Source: a virus. From it: a stretch of DNA of 36,348 nt. The position numbers and the translations under genes are program-made. The notes beneath the pieces were generated by a model. The model saw only the letters and a program-made list of their open reading frames with translations, was not told the DNA's origin and did no database searches. Below, one piece after another: positions 7,964 to 26,672 of this stretch (the stretch's first letter is position 1; every line of letters starts with the position of its first letter). The stretch is taken from positions 1 to 36,348 of the IMG/VR virus record IMGVR_UViG_3300001748_000009. One strand, 5' to 3'.

Positions 7964-8404
7964 ATGAAGACTAGCTACAGTCAAGACATGCCATCACGTG
8001 ACCCCATGGCTGTCGATACACAGTTCATGTTCACTGAGGGGCACATCCGCCTTCTCATTTGGATGTGTGACGCGCACCAAGACTACCTTGACAGAGCTTG
8101 CGACGACATCCTGAAGCAGGGTGACTCACCAAGCGACAACCTCATGAACTGCCGTGAGGGCATTGCTGAACTCAAGGTATGGGCTCATCGACTCTTGGAA
8201 GCCCTAGAGGAAGATGATGACGAGGATGAGATGGACGACCCTGAATACGTTTCAGAGATCGATGAAACCGAACTATCCAAAGACGGCTTGGACGACGTTA
8301 GAGAAGCGTTGGACTTGCGGTGGCGGGTGCATCGAAACGCTGCAAGGCCCCCGAAGCATGACCCGCTACAGATGCTCCGCGCTTGGCTACGCTCGCTATT
8401 GTGA
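7964..8404 (+). CDS. Acidic hypothetical protein, 146 aa
   Basis: The last gene of the rightward operon. Two helical parts (about residues 25-70 and 105-146) flank a strongly acidic middle (EEDDDEDEMDDPEY). The basic tail has RAWLRSLL. The acidic stretch could mimic nucleic acid or bind a basic partner, but nothing specific is recognised. A hairpin follows directly after the stop and separates it from the converging minus-strand genes. Confidence 0.7.
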   Translation: MKTSYSQDMPSRDPMAVDTQFMFTEGHIRLLIWMCDAHQDYLDRACDDILKQGDSPSDNLMNCREGIAELKVWAHRLLEALEEDDDEDEMDDPEYVSEIDETELSKDGLDDVREALDLRWRVHRNAARPPKHDPLQMLRAWLRSLL

Positions 8405-8416
8405 CACATTGCATGA

Positions 8417-8437
8417 TGCTGAAAATTATATTCAGCA
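8417..8437. terminator. Hairpin between convergent genes
   Basis: TGCTGAA (8417-8423) and TTCAGCA (8431-8437) pair perfectly over AATTATA, 12 bp after the rightward stop at 8404 and 17 bp beyond the leftward stop at 8455. It is placed as a bidirectional terminator would be, but lacks a strong T-run. Confidence 0.5.
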
Positions 8438-8454
8438 ATACAATTGTGATGCAT

Positions 8455-8646
8455 TTAAGCGGACAAGTTTCTAGCAGCTTCTTGCATGAAATAAAGAGAT
8501 TTTCTTTTTTCCATGTAAAGAAGCTCTAAAACTCCTTTTGCAATTTCGTGCAGGCTATTTGCATCTTGTTCGATCATGCAATTTTGCATTGCCATTGCAA
8601 TTTTTTCTTTTTGCAATTCCTGCTCTAAAGGGAGATCTGGAATCAT
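8455..8646 (-). CDS. Small helical hypothetical protein, 63 aa
   Basis: Starts MIPDLPLEQELQKEKIAMAM in an ATGA overlap with the preceding gene. It is almost entirely helical, with LEQE near the N-terminus and LLYMEKRKSLYFM in the second helix. Size and layout faintly recall NblA, the small phycobilisome-degradation adaptor also found in some cyanophages, but the match is too weak to name it so. It may equally be a generic short phage protein. Last gene of the leftward late/lysis arm. Confidence 0.65.
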   Translation of the reverse strand: MIPDLPLEQELQKEKIAMAMQNCMIEQDANSLHEIAKGVLELLYMEKRKSLYFMQEAARNLSA

Positions 8647-8849
8647 TGCATTGACCTGAACGCTTGCTCTGCTGCTGCTTTAGCTGATGATTCGGTGTCA
8701 AACATTCCAGAAACATAATTTACTGTGCCATTAAGAATATACCATGCTCTGAAATAACCAGTACCATAACTTACGAATTGTGCGCCTGTGTCATTGTGCT
8801 TAAAAGGTGAAGGATTCATTTGGCAATTTAGCCTTTCCGCATCCCTCAT
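8643..8849 (-). CDS. Small hypothetical protein, 68 aa
   Basis: The open frame reaches 9029, but upstream codons run antisense through the HNH gene, so I start at the ATG at 8849. The product begins MRDAERLNCQMNPSPFKHND; its core reads FRAWYILNGTVNYVSGMFDT followed by a helix (SSAKAAAEQAFRSM). This strand-strand-helix layout recurs in small phage proteins of unknown role. It is divergent from the HNH gene with 33 bp between starts. Confidence 0.7.
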   Translation of the reverse strand: MRDAERLNCQMNPSPFKHNDTGAQFVSYGTGYFRAWYILNGTVNYVSGMFDTESSAKAAAEQAFRSMQ

Positions 8850-8882
8850 TTTGCGTACAATTTGTCTAGAAGGGAAGCGCGA

Positions 8883-9323
8883 ATGCACTCCTACGTTGAC
8901 GAGATTTATCTGGTCGGGCGACGGGAGTCTAAGAAGCGATTCCGATCTAAAATTTACGGGGCGTGGGGCGGCAAGTGCGCCTATTGTGGCGAGGTCGCTC
9001 GTTCCCTTGACCATATCTTGCCTAGGCATAAAGGTGGCCTGACAATAATAGAAAATTTAGCTCCTGCCTGCTTACGTTGCAACGGCCAAAAGGGCGCACA
9101 ACACTGGGTCACATGGTATCGCAATCAAGAGTTTTACGATGTAGAACGTGAAACCCTGATCTGGCTTTGGATTAATCAAAACCTACGCGAAGATTACTGT
9201 GAGTTGCCTAGCCCTTTCCAAGGCCTTTTCCCTGCTATAGAACAACTCGATTTTGCTGCCACTTATACAGAGGTAGACAATACGATTGTCGACAAACGAT
9301 TCCCTGACGATTGCGTCACGTAG
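8883..9323 (+). CDS. HNH endonuclease
   Basis: The ATG at 8883 is preceded by an AGAAGG ribosome site and gives 146 residues; a TTG at 8862 is the alternative. Zinc-binding and catalytic residues are C32 and C35 (CAYC), D43-H44 (LDH), N58 and C63/C66 (CLRCN). HNH proteins cut or nick DNA; free-standing ones in phages are often homing endonucleases. It is the only plus-strand gene inside a minus-strand block, and its last 141 bp lie antisense to a small gene at 9183-9332. This supports insertion as a mobile gene (inference). Confidence 0.9.
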   Translation: MHSYVDEIYLVGRRESKKRFRSKIYGAWGGKCAYCGEVARSLDHILPRHKGGLTIIENLAPACLRCNGQKGAQHWVTWYRNQEFYDVERETLIWLWINQNLREDYCELPSPFQGLFPAIEQLDFAATYTEVDNTIVDKRFPDDCVT

Positions 9324-9332
9324 TTTTTTCAT
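9183..9332 (-). CDS. Small hypothetical protein, 49 aa, antisense to HNH end
   Basis: The ATG at 9332 overlaps the end of dcd by 17 bp. The product starts MKKLRDAIVRESFVDNRIVY and continues with LCISGSKIELFYS and a helix (REKALERARQL). That strand-strand-helix pattern is typical of short phage proteins, so I think the frame is real although the C-terminal part of the HNH gene occupies the opposite strand. One of the two frames may be fortuitous in the overlap. Confidence 0.55.
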   Translation of the reverse strand: MKKLRDAIVRESFVDNRIVYLCISGSKIELFYSREKALERARQLTVIFA

Positions 9333-9846
9333 CCCAACTCCCCATAACCTTTGCATCATTGTTATAGCGCCCCGTAACCTCATAACTAAGGGCCGGAGTT
9401 GCGCTCATCTTGCTGAAAACCATTTGACCAATCTTCAATCCAGGATACAACGCTAACGGCCAATACTTTCGAGCGTTGATTAGCTCAAGCGTTAGAACGC
9501 TCCCAGACCAGCCAGGATCGCACCAGCCAGCCTGCGCGTGATCAAACCCCTCGCGACCTCTAGAAGACTTCAGGGCGAACATAGCGGACACGTTGTCGGG
9601 CAATCTGAAGGTTTCTTGCGTTTGCGCCAGCACGAATTGCCCTGGTCCAAGCCAGTAGGGATCAAGCTCAGTTCTTTCTGAAATGTTCAACCTTTCCATT
9701 TGACGAGACTCAGGAGTCTCAACCATTAATTGATCGCCAAGGAGCACGTCAATGCTGGCAGGATTTAGAAGTTCAGCTCTAAAAGGCCACACCATTTGAC
9801 GCTGCTCACACAGCTCCCTGATTTCCCAATCACAAAGAACGCTCAT
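9316..9846 (-). CDS. dcd: dCTP deaminase / dUTPase-fold protein
   Basis: The ATG at 9846 overlaps the endolysin stop as ATGA, so I prefer it to an upstream ATG at 9882. A 176-residue protein. Motifs: LNPASIDVLLGD (27-38), SSRGREG (94-100), AGWCDPGWSG (106-115) and LTLELIN (118-124) with E121 as the likely catalytic glutamate, then YPGLKIGQMVF. Dcd deaminates dCTP to dUTP, feeding dTTP synthesis, and works as a trimer in the cytoplasm. In a phage it boosts thymidine supply. Some dUTPase-fold members have other roles, but the Dcd motifs are well kept. Confidence 0.9.
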   Translation of the reverse strand: MSVLCDWEIRELCEQRQMVWPFRAELLNPASIDVLLGDQLMVETPESRQMERLNISERTELDPYWLGPGQFVLAQTQETFRLPDNVSAMFALKSSRGREGFDHAQAGWCDPGWSGSVLTLELINARKYWPLALYPGLKIGQMVFSKMSATPALSYEVTGRYNNDAKVMGSWDEKTT

Positions 9847-10574
9847 TGCAAAATGTAATTTTTTGCTCTGTTGTAATACCAAATCCTATCATCAATTCCG
9901 TTGTATCCGCCATTCAGCCTGCGGGTACATTCGTAGATGTCGCCTCGATCACATAGCGCCGCCCAGTTGTTCTCTTCAATCCAGCAAATCGCGCAAAGAA
10001 ATGGGTATTTGTTTGCTACATAATCAGTTCCTTCCATGATGCGATCATCTTTCATCCCATTTTGTTCCATCCACCTATCAAAACGGCTAAAGTTGTATTT
10101 GCCGGTGAGCTGAATTACACCGCATCCGCGATATTTATAGCCGTCACCAACGCCGTTTCCAAGATCGCTGCGATTATCGTACATGCGAGTGAAATAAGCA
10201 CGATCGCCAATTTCAGTCATGTACTTATATCCAGCAGTTTCATGACAAGTCTGCGCCACCAGCATTCGGCGTTGATTCAAGCTTGTCATTCCTGCTGCTT
10301 TTGTAAGACGATTCAAATCATTCATGAAAAGATCGTCAAACAATGCCTCGTTATGACCTGAAACCTGTGCAATTTGCCTGCGAGTTATGATCCAATCTGG
10401 AGCCCTTTCTGCAACTGGAGTGCTCCAAGTCTGATACCACTGCTGATCGCGATTAAATACATCAGGCGCTTTTTCTAAAATTGCGCTTTCTAGTTCCTGC
10501 AACGCTGCAGTTTGATGACCCTTTTGTTTGTAATACCTGAACAGATCAAGCAGCCGGATTGGGGTCATCGTCAT
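9843..10574 (-). CDS. GH19-type endolysin
   Basis: A 243-residue protein with a chitinase-like (GH19) lysozyme domain at about residues 85-243. The two catalytic glutamates are E112 in CHETAG and E121 in EIGD, the usual nine residues apart. Substrate-cleft motifs YKYRGCGVIQLTG and NGGYNGIDDR follow; the common RGRG is RGCG here. GH19 endolysins cut peptidoglycan glycan strands. The first 80 residues form a separate helical part, possibly cell-wall binding. No signal peptide is seen, so export would depend on a holin. ATGs at 10574 and 10568 both fit. Confidence 0.92.
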   Translation of the reverse strand: MTMTPIRLLDLFRYYKQKGHQTAALQELESAILEKAPDVFNRDQQWYQTWSTPVAERAPDWIITRRQIAQVSGHNEALFDDLFMNDLNRLTKAAGMTSLNQRRMLVAQTCHETAGYKYMTEIGDRAYFTRMYDNRSDLGNGVGDGYKYRGCGVIQLTGKYNFSRFDRWMEQNGMKDDRIMEGTDYVANKYPFLCAICWIEENNWAALCDRGDIYECTRRLNGGYNGIDDRIWYYNRAKNYILQ

Positions 10575-10824
10575 CGTGTGGTGATTGAATTCTCATGAAC
10601 CCGCCGAGAGGGGTTTCGCCTTGTTGGTCTTCTGTAAATTTAGCTCTGCGTTTGCTTCGTTCAAGCTCTAGATCAATCACTTCAGCCGCCTCGCTTACAG
10701 CATTGTCTAGCTTGTTTGGCAAAGTTGCATAAAATTTTCGCGCTTGCACAGCACGACGCAAGCGTTCACCATTGCTTCTTGTGTCAAAGCGCCAAAGCCA
10801 AACCCCGTCAGGCGGAATCAGTTC
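10546..10824 (-). CDS. Frameshift-accessed extension of the 49-aa membrane protein
   Basis: This 92-codon frame (ELIPPDGVWLWRFD... to ...DDDDPNPAA) has no ATG or GTG start: from its upstream in-frame stop to 10761 there is only one TTG. It lies exactly in the -1 frame of the 49-aa gene and is entered at an A AAA AAG heptamer (10824-10830). The peptide is charged and helical (ERLRRAVQARKFYATLPNKL), with an acidic tail and no cysteine. Frameshifting would give a 140-residue membrane-anchored protein, in outline like an inner-membrane spanin. Initiation at CTG 10821, ATT 10818 or TTG 10761 is the alternative. Its end overlaps the endolysin start by 29 bp. Confidence 0.6.
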   Translation of the reverse strand, partial: ELIPPDGVWLWRFDTRSNGERLRRAVQARKFYATLPNKLDNAVSEAAEVIDLELERSKRRAKFTEDQQGETPLGGFMRIQSPHDDDDPNPAA

Positions 10825-10967
10825 TTTTTTGCCTTGAGTGAGCGCAGTGCGGTAAACACAAGCTGAATCACAGAATTGTCACGCATAGGAGACAGGGCAA
10901 TCAGCTCGCTAGCAGCAGCAACAACAATCCAAAAAGCTGGATGGCTTAAAATTTGCTCGACGTGCAT
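10818..10967 (-). CDS. Small membrane protein, 49 aa (holin candidate)
   Basis: ATG at 10967, stop at 10818. The product starts MHVEQILSHPAFWIVVAAAS; residues 11-26 are a good membrane segment, 33-43 (VIQLVFTALRS) a second hydrophobic stretch, and the C-terminus is basic (KAKKN). Position between a membrane/coiled-coil protein and the endolysin suggests a holin or other lysis protein. I recall similar short proteins in cyanophages. Its last codons GCA AAA AAG AAC contain a classical -1 slippery heptamer directly before the stop, so a longer product is likely. Confidence 0.72.
   Translation of the reverse strand: MHVEQILSHPAFWIVVAAASELIALSPMRDNSVIQLVFTALRSLKAKKN
10824..10830 (-). promoter_or_regulatory. 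Putative -1 frameshift site A AAA AAG
   Basis: Read in the zero frame (GCA AAA AAG AAC TGA) this is the X XXY YYZ heptamer A AAA AAG, among the most efficient bacterial -1 sites (as in E. coli dnaX). The zero-frame stop is one codon downstream. Slippage continues as GAA CTG ATT CCG and stays open for 92 codons. A strong downstream stem is not obvious by eye; only a short CGCC/GGCG pairing is seen. Confidence 0.55.
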
Positions 10968-10994
10968 TTGAAGTAAAGACTCTTCAATCCAATG

Positions 10995-11249
10995 CTAGCT
11001 CTTATCGTTCGTTTTGCCCTCAAGAAGAGTTAAACGATTGTCGTGCAAATTTAATTTTGTGTAAATTTCTTTTCGATCTGACTTCATGTCTTGATGAAGC
11101 TCGTCAAGTTTGCCCGCAATGCTTTCAACCGCCATCGTCAACCTGATGACAGCTTCTCTTGATTCATTGTTTCGGCGGCTGAAGCCTGATGCGGTAAGGC
11201 CCGCGACACCTATTGAGGCACCCAACACCGCAGCGTAGATTTCGATCAT
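10995..11249 (-). CDS. Membrane-anchored coiled-coil protein, 84 aa (lysis-associated)
   Basis: Residues 3-21 (EIYAAVLGASIGVAGLTAS) form one membrane segment, followed by basic residues (SRRNN) and a long amphipathic helix or coiled coil (30-78, with KLDELHQDM). This N-terminal anchor plus coiled coil fits a holin-associated or spanin-like protein in the lysis cassette. XhlA-type haemolysins have the reverse order, so that label does not fit. It lies between the fibre chaperone and the 49-aa membrane gene. Confidence 0.7.
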   Translation of the reverse strand: MIEIYAAVLGASIGVAGLTASGFSRRNNESREAVIRLTMAVESIAGKLDELHQDMKSDRKEIYTKLNLHDNRLTLLEGKTNDKS

Positions 11250-11276
11250 TGGTGCGGCATCAACCTCAACTCAAGT

Positions 11277-11855
11277 CTACCCATTCGAAAAAATTGTTCC
11301 AGACGTTGTACTACCGGAAAAAGTTATGGTTTCTGAGCCGCTATCGCTAGAAGGCAATACCCCATCAGCAGAAGAATCAGAAGTAGCAAGGTTGGGATCA
11401 TTAAGCCAGATGCTGTAGTTGCTGCTGATTACATATGCTGCCAGCTCATCGGTGTTGGTGGTGCCTTCAATAGCTGCTTCCTTTTCGTCGCTTTTGGCGC
11501 GAATCTCTGCACGTTCAGCCAAAACTTCATCAGAAGCTGGCTTGCCATTAGGCTCAGCACTGCGAGTGATCATCCAGTCAGTAGGTGCTAGCAGGGTGCC
11601 AGCAGTGGTTTTAGTCTGCGCTACCCATTGCTCAACCAGTTGAGCGTGATCCTTCGGGATGAGTTGCCCGTCCTGGTCATAACCCCAGTAGAAACGCTGA
11701 TCCCAAACTGGATCGGGCTGCACCCATACAATGCCAAGCGCATCGCGGTCTTCCTGAGTGCTAAGTCGTAACCAGTTGCTGGGATACTGCACATCACCAA
11801 ACGTAAAGGCACGATCTGGTGGAAGAAGGCGATTGTCGGGAAGCTTGTAGGGCAT
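11277..11855 (-). CDS. Tail-fibre chaperone-like protein
   Basis: A 192-residue protein. The middle segment TLLAPTDWMITRSAEPNGKP followed by AERAEIRAKSDEKEAAIE resembles the C-terminal part of phage tail-fibre assembly chaperones, where a DWM...R motif precedes a long helix. The N-terminal half (LPDNRLLPPDRAFTFGDVQYP) binds or mimics fibre segments in such families. The C-terminus is Ser/Thr/Gly-rich and low-complexity, so it may be attached to the fibre itself. Location right after the fibre genes supports the call, which remains moderate. Confidence 0.62.
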   Translation of the reverse strand: MPYKLPDNRLLPPDRAFTFGDVQYPSNWLRLSTQEDRDALGIVWVQPDPVWDQRFYWGYDQDGQLIPKDHAQLVEQWVAQTKTTAGTLLAPTDWMITRSAEPNGKPASDEVLAERAEIRAKSDEKEAAIEGTTNTDELAAYVISSNYSIWLNDPNLATSDSSADGVLPSSDSGSETITFSGSTTSGTIFSNG

Positions 11856-11912
11856 GATCTCAGGGCGTTAGTAGCATTTTAGTGGAAAGACAAGGCTTGT
11901 TCACTTGTGGGG

Positions 11913-12002
11913 TCATCGAAGGCTTCTAATACCAAAACCGATAAACCATCCGATAAAAAGGCCGATCAACGCCCCAAAGCAAAATAAAAGATATTCAGTC
12001 AT
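11913..12002 (-). CDS. 29-aa single-pass membrane peptide
   Basis: The ATG at 12002 overlaps the fibre stop as ATGA. The peptide starts MTEYLLFCFGALIGLFIGWF and ends IRSLR. It is almost entirely one membrane segment with a glycine-spaced face (GxxxG-like repeats), and the basic tail suggests a cytoplasmic C-terminus. Such tiny peptides can be holins, antiholins or lysis regulators. Only the coupled start and the clean membrane profile support it. Confidence 0.55.
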   Translation of the reverse strand: MTEYLLFCFGALIGLFIGWFIGFGIRSLR

Positions 12003-14476
12003 CGGGCGCGGGATGTGGCGAATGGGTGCTCGGCGAAGGCGGCGTAGATGTAGGTGGCGCCACTGCTGTTGTATGCGGACAGTGCTGTGCGCAGCTTGAA
12101 TCCGTTACTGAGAATGTCGTGATGATAATTTGTACTTGTAGTCTCTTGCGTTGATTGATTGGGCATTAGCAGAGCATCAACGACATTGTATGTATTGCGA
12201 GCAGTATCGTGCATCACCCAGCTATCGCTGGACGCCGAAGAGTTTTTAATCATGATCCACCTCGGCCTAAACCCGGTATAAACAAACGTCCCATCTGTGC
12301 TGCCATTGCCGGTGTAGCTGCCAAAAGAAGAGTACCCGTCTACTGGGGCGAAGCAGTAGGCGACGTAATTTTGACCACTGCCGTTGGCCTGTCCAACAGT
12401 ATTAACTGTAAACACTGAAGATGTTGGATCTGTACTATTCCAGTATTCATTACCTGAAGCAGCACTAACAGTAAGATTTAAAATCAAACGATTTGCAGCA
12501 CCCGCTGCTTTAGAATAAACCGCCCAGTTTTCAGCGTTAGTTCTACTTTTGACAAGTATAAGCTCAGGTGCGGCATTCAAACCGTGCCCAATCGTTGCTA
12601 AAGATCCTGTTCCCGTATAACTAACAATCGAGAACCCCGCACTAGCATTAGCCCTCACGCTAGAAGTGATGCTGCCATCTGTGTTGGAGACTGTTGATGA
12701 ACCGGCGTCCCAAGTCCAGGCGACGTAGGTAGTTCCAGATCCATTTACCCTTCCTGCCGCATCCGTGCCAAGCGTAAATCCATCGGAATTAAAAGCAGTT
12801 AAACGATCTGTTTCAGTTCCCTCTCCTGCTGTTGAATCACTAAACAGCACCTTCGTAACACCACGGATCTGATCGAATATCTGGTGAGATAATGCGCTGC
12901 TTCTAGCCTTAAACCATATAAAATCAGGCGAGAAGTTCAGCCCACTAATGGTCTGCGTGCTGCCATTGCCCGTATACAGCGCCACATCCATCGCCGTGCT
13001 GCCGTCAGCAATCGTTGGCTCCGGCAGGTTGGTGGTGCAGAGTGCCTTGAAGCCGCTGGGGGCGGTGTAGGCGAAAGGGCGTTGGCCTGCGTTTAGTGAG
13101 AAATCAGTGTAATTAGAAGCATCGTTTGAATAAGGGGTGACAACTACAGCATACGTTCCAGACGCAATAGAAGTAAACTGTGCATTTGTTCCTGAAGCTG
13201 GATTGCCACTGTTTTCCCATACGCCATCTTTAGCCACCCAAACTTTTCCGGCGTCTAAATCAAAGGCGACTGATAGAACAGTTCCAGTTGTAGCGCCGCT
13301 GGTTGTCAGGTTAGTCAATGAAGAATTATTACGTTTATACCAAGTAGACCCATTGCCTCCAACGCCAAAGCAAAAAGCATCGGAAGCGTCGCTCGCCCTA
13401 TTTGCCAAGCTAGTTCCAACTGCTTTTATTCCAACCTCACCCGCCTGAAAGCTAGCGGCATACACAGGAGTGACTGCACACTCAAAATACCATTTGCCTG
13501 CTGACACACCGACAGTGCCGCGACAGGATTCATTCTGTGCCGTTCTTGTACTTGTTTTGATGTCCAGATTTCCGTTTGAAAGCGTAGGTAAACTACTGCT
13601 TCTATCAAGCGGATTCAACGTCGCATAATTCCCCACCACCTCACCACCAGCACCAGTGTCTGTCTGCGTGCCATTAGTGGGGGAGTCTACGAGGCTGTCG
13701 TTGCCTGCACCAGCAGTGACGCTGATGTTGTTAACGGTCCAAGTGTTGCTGTTCCCACTAGTGTCCGTCCCTAGTGCGGCGGCGGTGCTGTTATCGCTGA
13801 AGGGCAGGTGGAACCCGTTGGTGCCGTAGCTGCCGGTGTATGCGATGGGTTGCCACACGCCGTTGGTGTCGAACTCACCGAAGCTGCTGGGGTCTAGGGC
13901 TTGGCCGTCGATGAAGTGGACGTCGGCTAGGTAGCCGGAGAAATAAAAACCATTAGCCCAAGCACCTATCCTGTGCTCAACAGCAGCGTTAATCTGCCCG
14001 TCAAAGTTTTGCGTAGGATATTGCGTGACTAATAGCTGCGTTTGCAGCACACCATTAACATAGATCTTTATGCGATTAGAGTCTGTTCCTTGCGTTGTGT
14101 CCCACGCAACAACAACGTGATACCAAGCAGATAGATCTCTAAATACCGCCGAAGTTCGGATGTAAAAGTAGTTTGTCCCGCTACCTTGATATTGCTCAAC
14201 TTGAAGGGTGTCAGCTTGGAAATAAATAGCTAATTGGACTGGTGATCCACTGGTTGCGCCTGTGCCAAATAGATGTGTGTTGGTATAGCTGCTTGCAAGC
14301 GCACTCCTCTTCACCCACCCCGCCCAGGTCCACGTCTTCCTGTTGCCAGCCGATGCAGGTGTTCTGGACAAGAAGCCACTGTCACTACTGTTAAAACGCA
14401 AGGATCTGGAGATACCCTCAGCAGCAGCGGCTTCAGCAGGTTTTAGAAGCAGTGGGTTCGCAGATCCAGGAATCAT
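11999..14476 (-). CDS. LamG-domain tail fibre / receptor-binding protein
   Basis: An 825-residue protein. Residues about 25-215 form a concanavalin/LamG-like domain (TWTWAGWVKRS, WYHVVVAWDTT, IKIYVNGVLQT). A SPRY-like segment (KWYFECAVTP, then GEVGIKAVG) follows at about 315-450. The C-terminal part has repeated modules with DFIWFKARSS, LILVKSRTN and RWIMIKNSS, each followed by 'W...' and a YVAW/YVAY strand, a layout known in aquatic phage fibres. These domains bind carbohydrates, so the protein probably touches the host surface. ATGA overlap with the preceding fibre gene. Confidence 0.85.
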   Translation of the reverse strand: MIPGSANPLLLKPAEAAAAEGISRSLRFNSSDSGFLSRTPASAGNRKTWTWAGWVKRSALASSYTNTHLFGTGATSGSPVQLAIYFQADTLQVEQYQGSGTNYFYIRTSAVFRDLSAWYHVVVAWDTTQGTDSNRIKIYVNGVLQTQLLVTQYPTQNFDGQINAAVEHRIGAWANGFYFSGYLADVHFIDGQALDPSSFGEFDTNGVWQPIAYTGSYGTNGFHLPFSDNSTAAALGTDTSGNSNTWTVNNISVTAGAGNDSLVDSPTNGTQTDTGAGGEVVGNYATLNPLDRSSSLPTLSNGNLDIKTSTRTAQNESCRGTVGVSAGKWYFECAVTPVYAASFQAGEVGIKAVGTSLANRASDASDAFCFGVGGNGSTWYKRNNSSLTNLTTSGATTGTVLSVAFDLDAGKVWVAKDGVWENSGNPASGTNAQFTSIASGTYAVVVTPYSNDASNYTDFSLNAGQRPFAYTAPSGFKALCTTNLPEPTIADGSTAMDVALYTGNGSTQTISGLNFSPDFIWFKARSSALSHQIFDQIRGVTKVLFSDSTAGEGTETDRLTAFNSDGFTLGTDAAGRVNGSGTTYVAWTWDAGSSTVSNTDGSITSSVRANASAGFSIVSYTGTGSLATIGHGLNAAPELILVKSRTNAENWAVYSKAAGAANRLILNLTVSAASGNEYWNSTDPTSSVFTVNTVGQANGSGQNYVAYCFAPVDGYSSFGSYTGNGSTDGTFVYTGFRPRWIMIKNSSASSDSWVMHDTARNTYNVVDALLMPNQSTQETTSTNYHHDILSNGFKLRTALSAYNSSGATYIYAAFAEHPFATSRAR

Positions 14477-26008: not shown

Positions 26009-26349
26009 CAGGGGTTCCTCTTGCTAAAGCAGCCCAGAGCCGCAAGTTCCATCACCTGTATCCCTTCAAACAAAGACACAGGATCTTTCACTGAATACAG
26101 TCTACTCAAGTAATCAAGAGCTGAGTAGTTCAGGCCAGTCAAACCAGCCATGCTTACGTTCCACTGGGTTTGCATTTTTAAAAATATCATTACTGTTTCC
26201 CAGTTTTCTTCTAAAACCTCAAAATCTTTTTTTACTGGTCGCAAGCCAGCAGCAGCAATTTGCTCGGGGGTCGCCCCAAGCGCCAATAAGTCAGATTCAC
26301 GCTCATCCACAACGCCGCCTTTTGCCCAATATTGAGCAGCGGCCTCTAG
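26008..26349 (-). CDS. Tail assembly chaperone, frameshift T part (DUF1799-like)
   Basis: A 113-residue extension read after a -1 slip at 26349-26355: LEAAAQYWAKGGVVDERESD onward. Its end GLTGLNYSALDYLSRLY with LFEGIQVMELAALG is the DUF1799 pattern of lambda T-like chaperone parts. It is translated as a fusion to the G-like protein (about 221 residues total). The fusion recruits tube subunits to the tape measure during assembly and is not in the finished virion. A GTG at 26310 could allow separate translation, but the conserved frameshift arrangement makes the fusion more likely. Confidence 0.88.
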   Translation of the reverse strand, partial: LEAAAQYWAKGGVVDERESDLLALGATPEQIAAAGLRPVKKDFEVLEENWETVMIFLKMQTQWNVSMAGLTGLNYSALDYLSRLYSVKDPVSLFEGIQVMELAALGCFSKRNP

Positions 26350-26672
26350 TTTTTTGCTTTTTCGCCCGTCAGGCTATCGGTGTAAGCCGTGATCAAGGCG
26401 CGAAGAACGTAAGGATCATCAAACAGTTGTTGCTTGCTATCCTCGCCAAAAGGCACTTCTTCGCCAGCTTCGTCCTTTACGTTTTCCCAGCCTTCAATAA
26501 TCTCATTGACCAAAGCGTCATCGCCTTCATCAATCAAATCATTAAAAGCGGAACGGCTCATTTTGCGAAAAACAGCCGTAAAAGTTTCTTTCTTAAAACG
26601 CCCGCCATCTACTGGCACTTCAACAGTGACGGGCCATTTGTAAGAAGAGCTTTTCTTGAGAACAAAAGCCAT
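26346..26672 (-). CDS. Tail assembly chaperone (gpG-like)
   Basis: A 108-residue protein: MAFVLKKSSSYKWPVTVEVP, then FKKETFTAVFRKMSRSAFND and a helical acidic C-terminal half. Position between tail tube and tape measure and the slippery heptamer at its 3' end identify it as the G-type chaperone, which coats the tape measure before tube polymerisation. It is made in excess over the frameshifted form. Confidence 0.88.
   Translation of the reverse strand: MAFVLKKSSSYKWPVTVEVPVDGGRFKKETFTAVFRKMSRSAFNDLIDEGDDALVNEIIEGWENVKDEAGEEVPFGEDSKQQLFDDPYVLRALITAYTDSLTGEKAKN
26349..26355 (-). promoter_or_regulatory. Programmed -1 frameshift site A AAA AAC
   Basis: The zero frame reads GCA AAA AAC TAG: heptamer A AAA AAC immediately before the stop. 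The -1 frame continues as CTA GAG GCC and is open for 114 codons to 26008, encoding the DUF1799-like part. This is the classical G/GT arrangement. Confidence 0.9.

Follow-up and report, generated by a model that had tools for sequence, protein, structure and literature searches.

Among double-stranded DNA phages, most of the programmed -1 frameshifts known affect tail chaperone and capsid genes. The tail-assembly chaperone gene G/GT carries a heptamer just before the 0-frame stop and yields a minor product with a C-terminal extension, and T7 gene 10A/10B and the C3 podophage capsid gene (GGGAAAG) also give a minor extended form through a -1 slip; in another phage, GGGAAAG has been reported to act as a frameshift signal (PMC7881722). 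E. coli dnaX shifts on A_AAA_AAG at tandem Lys codons, where Shine-Dalgarno-like and stem-loop elements act as defined stimulators, and the shift yields the shorter of its two products. According to PMC5009743, A_AAA_AAG is much more shift-prone in E. coli than the other heptamers compared, in agreement with the high efficiency claimed for it in the first-pass annotation of the present locus, and the slippage is linked to the sole lysine tRNA reading both codons. In phage lysis genes, reading-frame events were reported for MS2 and a lactococcal lysin (cited in PMC10885494 and PMC5009743); in MS2 a frame error starts the overlapping lysis gene, whereas the cyanophage slip would extend a membrane protein, and neither case is presented there as the lengthening of a membrane protein through a conserved slippery heptamer.

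We analysed a 36,348-nucleotide virus stretch, referred to as the window (IMG/VR record IMGVR_UViG_3300001748_000009, positions 1 to 36,348), in which a 49-codon lysis-cassette gene is very probably decoded in two ways through a programmed -1 frameshift at A_AAA_AAG. The minus-strand ORF 10967-10818 (ATG at 10967; product MHVEQILSHPAFWIVVAAASELIALSPMRDNSVIQLVFTALRSLKAKKN) matches phrog_22542 (E 1.1e-31, function unknown) and encodes one hydrophobic segment (PAFWIVVAAASELIALSP) and, after it, a basic amphipathic stretch. Its 3' end reads AAG GCA AAA AAG AAC TGA, placing the heptamer at 10830-10824 in the 0-frame phase and the TGA (10818-10820) one codon past it. The first codon after a -1 slip is GAA (10824-10822), and the -1 frame runs without a stop for 92 codons until the TGA at 10548-10546 (extension 10546-10824, minus strand; ELIPPDGVWLWRF...GETPLGGFMRIQSPHDDDDPNPAA), giving a predicted fusion of 48 + 92 = 140 aa. 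The in-frame heptamer at the gene end and the 92-codon frame open to 10546, both read in the first-pass annotation, were confirmed in the sequence. That annotation also stated that the frame has no ATG or GTG and that TTG at 10761 is the first candidate start: the TTG is indeed the earliest ATG/GTG/TTG, but a GTG lies four codons past it and an ATG codes the Met of GFMRIQ, so the absence of ATG and GTG holds only for the part able to start the whole domain.

Under the proposed mechanism, most ribosomes would stop at the TGA and release the 49-aa single-span membrane protein, and a minority would slip -1 on A_AAA_AAG, both Lys-tRNAs re-pairing, and continue translation to give a 140-aa protein that combines the same membrane segment with a 92-aa domain. 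The heptamer and the tandem Lys codons are those of dnaX, and the relevant kind of host is similar in having a single tRNA-Lys (UUU), the only tRNA-Lys among the 36 tRNA genes of a Cyanobium genome taken as proxy host, from an assembly that may be incomplete. Unlike in dnaX, the frameshift product would be the longer one. G/GT shares the phage gene, the stop-adjacent heptamer and the minor C-terminal extension but serves tail assembly, whereas the gene described here encodes a membrane protein of a lysis cassette; the T7 10A/10B and C3 podophage genes likewise encode a capsid protein and not a membrane or lysis protein. The window also contains a second apparent -1 frameshift, in the classical G/GT arrangement just upstream of the tape-measure gene: a 108-aa gene (26346-26672, minus strand) ends GAA AAA GCA AAA AAC TAG, with A_AAA_AAC as the heptamer, and its -1 frame (KKLEAAAQYWAKGG...CFSKRNP) extends to 26008.

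As a bare word, AAAAAAG occurs in the window at chance level (12 found, 11.9 expected), and the case therefore rests on comparison across loci. Homologues were collected from isolates, IMG/VR alignment scans, a pattern scan and a bacterial-genome scan, giving 179 distinct homologous loci; the isolate nearest to the window is cyanophage KBS-S-2A, which matches 35% of the cassette query at 70.6%. Three of the four IMG/VR alignment scans used search patterns confined to the membrane segment and were therefore unbiased towards the slip site; in the first scan, one of two patterns held the KKxLIP peptide, but not its codons. An in-phase A_AAA_AAG was found in 145 of the 179 loci, and 142 of these 145, representing 59 clusters (defined at <85% nucleotide identity), have -1 extensions no shorter than 30 codons; the cluster counts are not fully independent phylogenetically. 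Heptamer and 0-frame stop are separated by 0 (9 loci), 1 (135) or 2 (1) codons. Phase, stop-adjacent position and conservation over 59 clusters place the slip site above chance. In 137 of the 142 loci, neither ATG nor GTG occurs in the overlap or within the first 15 codons of the extension. We also considered an internal start in the -1 frame and rejected it: the residues right after the junction are conserved, and a start codon is missing there from most loci. The alignment of homologous cassettes, suggested as a check in the first-pass annotation, showed that heptamer, frame relation and missing start are all conserved.

The codon carrying the first A of the heptamer is free in its amino acid, with eight types among the 145 loci (GCA 55, GGA 41, CCA 20, TCA 8, CAA 7, GTA 6, ACA 4, GAA 4), and has A as third base in all of them. 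In the first 90 loci, the same amino acids elsewhere in the gene have A-ending codons in 8-56% of cases, and two thirds (67%) of the Lys codons elsewhere are AAG. This strict xxA AAA AAG choice would be left unexplained if the -1 frame were a separate gene with a coupled start at the overlapping CTG (aaCTGa) and no frameshift. CTGA overlaps are common, 117 of the 145 heptamer loci stop with TGA, and the homologous domains of S-CBS2 and of a Cyanobium contig do use a GTG at the overlap, all of which would suit such a restart. The other 28 loci stop with TAG (14) or TAA (14), and S-CBS3 (CTC TAG), L082 (CTC TAA) and the T7-like S-B28, WH11-B and 7B11-B (AAG TAA) have no CTG yet keep heptamer and extension; no ATG was found in the overlap of any domain-bearing heptamer locus. 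We therefore rejected the CTG restart, which we consider very improbable, on the evidence of the TAG- and TAA-stop loci that have no CTG, and we retain the frameshift reading.

Natural replacements and losses of the heptamer are informative. Five loci carry an alternative slippery heptamer, A_AAA_AAC at the slip position in L192 and G_GGA_AAG, the heptamer of the C3 podophage capsid gene, in L243, S-EIVl, L268 and L270. Upstream of the site, L243 shares 92-97% identity with A_AAA_AAG loci, but it combines G_GGA_AAG with a 75-codon LIPADGRW extension; in L268 the contig breaks off 23 codons into the extension. L192, together with L188-L191 and L194, is found in contigs binned to Crocinitomicaceae, Hyphomonadaceae, Blastopirellula, Rhodobacteraceae and Planctomycetota genomes, which are either mis-binned viral contigs or a sign that the host range of the gene family is wider. 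If RNA polymerase slipped on the A run, mRNAs with an extra base and the same fusion would result; the six or seven consecutive A's are compatible with this, and polymerase slippage is used for dnaX in Thermus (PMC5009743). However, most loci have a run of just A6, whereas known cases have longer runs (A_n, n > 7; PMC3711429), and neither the conserved phase nor the closing G would be needed. Because the run is short and the G_GGA_AAG variants in four loci have no long A run, polymerase slippage is disfavoured, with hardly any probability in our estimate, against ribosomal frameshifting.

Where the -1 domain is lost, the heptamer is lost too in several lineages, with Lys-Lys retained. L122 and L170, which share 70% identity, have no -1 domain and spell Lys-Lys as AAG AAA, and the endolysin ATG directly overlaps the stop of their membrane-protein gene. 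In the S37-C6 clade (L014, L313-316, L321-323, L325, L330, L332), a homologous extension is absent and Lys-Lys is still encoded, by AAG AAA or AAG AAG. A Fisher test of heptamer against domain among Lys-Lys loci, run on clusters that are not fully independent, gave 7e-7. Domains found without a heptamer have their own start, the GTG in S-CBS2 and in the Cyanobium contig and an ATG in S-CRES1, and no locus among the 179 has the domain in the -1 frame with neither heptamer nor start. As exceptions, the heptamer is kept in L317 and L319, where a stop ends the -1 frame after just 12 codons, and in L244, where the extension is an 18-codon remnant; in L317 and L319 this may reflect recent decay or an unrelated use. 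The family has the features of a frameshift gene, i.e., an in-phase X XXY YYZ heptamer near the stop, a conserved -1 frame and no independent start.

The extension evolves under protein constraint. Its median dN/dS is 0.15 (152 ungapped pairs), indicating purifying selection; between the window and L001, dN is 0.15 and dS 0.93, with 19/6/37 differences at codon positions 1/2/3. In the main family, a conserved LIPxDGxWL starts directly at the junction. The window extension is a distant match to phrog_3316, a family of unknown function from cyanophages (E 2.5e-5), and shares with it the C-terminal region GETPLGGxMRLxSPW. Stand-alone homologues of the C-terminal part were found in S-CAM7, MA01, S-CRES1 and S-CBS2, and hhalign aligned the extension to such stand-alone cyanophage proteins with a probability of 96.6% (E 5.8e-10, 44 columns). 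The stand-alone gene lies two genes after the annotated endolysin in MA01 and S-H34, and after the annotated lysin with two further genes between in S-CAM7. A PDB sequence search with the extension gave only weak troponin-T coiled-coil matches. Databases leave the -1 frame unannotated (KBS-S-2A) or start it late (S-CBS1, S-EIVl), as could be expected if the overlap were accidental and the frame a decayed or non-coding remnant; the dN/dS with its third-position excess, the conserved residues directly past the junction and the hhalign match leave that explanation practically no probability, and the frame is protein-like, as had been claimed from the window alone. In GenBank, S-CBS1, S-CBS3, S-B28 and S-EIVl (L006, L011, L015, L016) have late or implausible -1 starts or omit the membrane ORF.

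The gene neighbourhood is that of a lysis cassette. The endolysin gene (9843-10574, minus strand) encodes a protein of the GH19/SPN1S-endolysin type (phrog_181, lysis; PWe2 endolysin 9ms7, E 1.3e-18; 4ok7), and its first 29 bases are shared with the end of the -1 extension. It is directly followed by a dCTP deaminase gene (9316-9882, minus strand; TIGR02274, E 4.3e-31). Upstream in the cassette, an 84-aa membrane/coiled-coil protein (10995-11249, minus strand) matches phrog_26178 and, weakly, the hemolysin family phrog_937. In siphoviruses the membrane-protein gene follows the tail-fibre genes and precedes the endolysin, and in T7-like cyanopodoviruses it lies just upstream of the terminase small subunit, the place of T7 holin 17.5. 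The Pfam and NCBIfam families gave no match to support a lysis function of the slip-site gene, and Pfam silence carries little weight, since no cassette protein, even the endolysin, was matched by Pfam.

The site, its phase, the open frame, the purifying selection on the extension and the conservation with informative replacements are observed at these loci, whereas slippage in the cell, its efficiency and the function are inferred. A conserved downstream stem or pseudoknot, which the first-pass annotation had proposed as a stimulator to be sought by folding, was looked for and not found: RNAalifold gave 0 pairs, the downstream folding energy had no excess (z-scores scattered around 0), and an Rfam search gave no match. 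Hairpins apparent by eye (CCTGC-TGATG-GCAGG in S-CBS1, ATTCCG-CCTGA-CGGGGT in the window) are not conserved, and inspection by eye revealed no Shine-Dalgarno-like stimulator upstream. The site differs in this from dnaX, and the slip efficiency may therefore be modest; membership among frameshift genes is not barred, since a stimulator is common but not obligatory.

The flanks of the membrane segment contain 0 K/R on the N-terminal side, where the protein is acidic, and 4-7 on the C-terminal side. These charges predict an N-out/C-in topology, and the extension is therefore predicted to be cytoplasmic. The first-pass annotation had likened the long product to an inner-membrane spanin in outline. 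The single N-terminal membrane segment, the charged extension and the cassette position would fit an envelope-spanning, spanin-like product of a real frameshift, and recognised spanins are missing from many cyanophages (PMC6139136). An inner-membrane spanin, however, has an N-in/C-out anchor with a periplasmic coiled coil, the opposite of the topology predicted here by the positive-inside charges; no lipobox ORF for an o-spanin lipoprotein partner was found within 8400-12100 on either strand; and the domains homologous to the extension are found in stand-alone proteins of other cyanophages. We did not retain this comparison and consider a spanin-like long product improbable.

The short form, a small hydrophobic protein with a single span encoded beside the endolysin, has the layout of a single-span holin, and a holin-like role is plausible from gene position and the single hydrophobic segment, and would be the most economical reading. 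The long form would carry a cytoplasmic domain and be minor, which would suit a protein that adjusts holin assembly or connects it with the endolysin. It is a serious possibility, at a little under even chances, that the short form is a holin or holin-like protein and that the minor long form assembles together with it and either controls when lysis occurs or couples the membrane lesion to the endolysin. In lambda, one lysis gene gives two related membrane products, the holin-antiholin pair S105/S107. The cyanophage gene is similar in this respect, and the ratio of its products could set timing, but S105/S107 arise from dual starts and differ at the N-terminus, whereas here the difference would be a C-terminal extension made by a -1 frameshift. 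More tentatively, the locus may be a recoding lysis timer, in which slippage efficiency at one heptamer fixes the ratio of a short holin to its extended, co-assembling partner.

We found no published description of the slip site in the open literature, where subscription journals are mostly outside coverage, and no mention of it in the accessible parts of PMC10885494, PMC5009743 and PMC3711429; the earlier remark that no programmed frameshift is described at this point of a phage lysis cassette agrees with this. A deeply conserved slip site in a lysis cassette represents an additional class of recoded genes, and the second half of this widespread cyanophage gene escapes standard annotation; the frameshift would correct the annotations of S-CBS1, S-CBS3, S-B28 and S-EIVl. 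The slip site is a testable handle on the lysis of marine cyanobacteria, and protein-preserving point changes (AAA AAG vs AAG AAA) occur naturally. The recoding timer, if true, would be a form of dual-product lysis control that is conserved in both cyanosiphoviruses and T7-like cyanopodoviruses, unlike the known dual-start or separate-gene antiholins.
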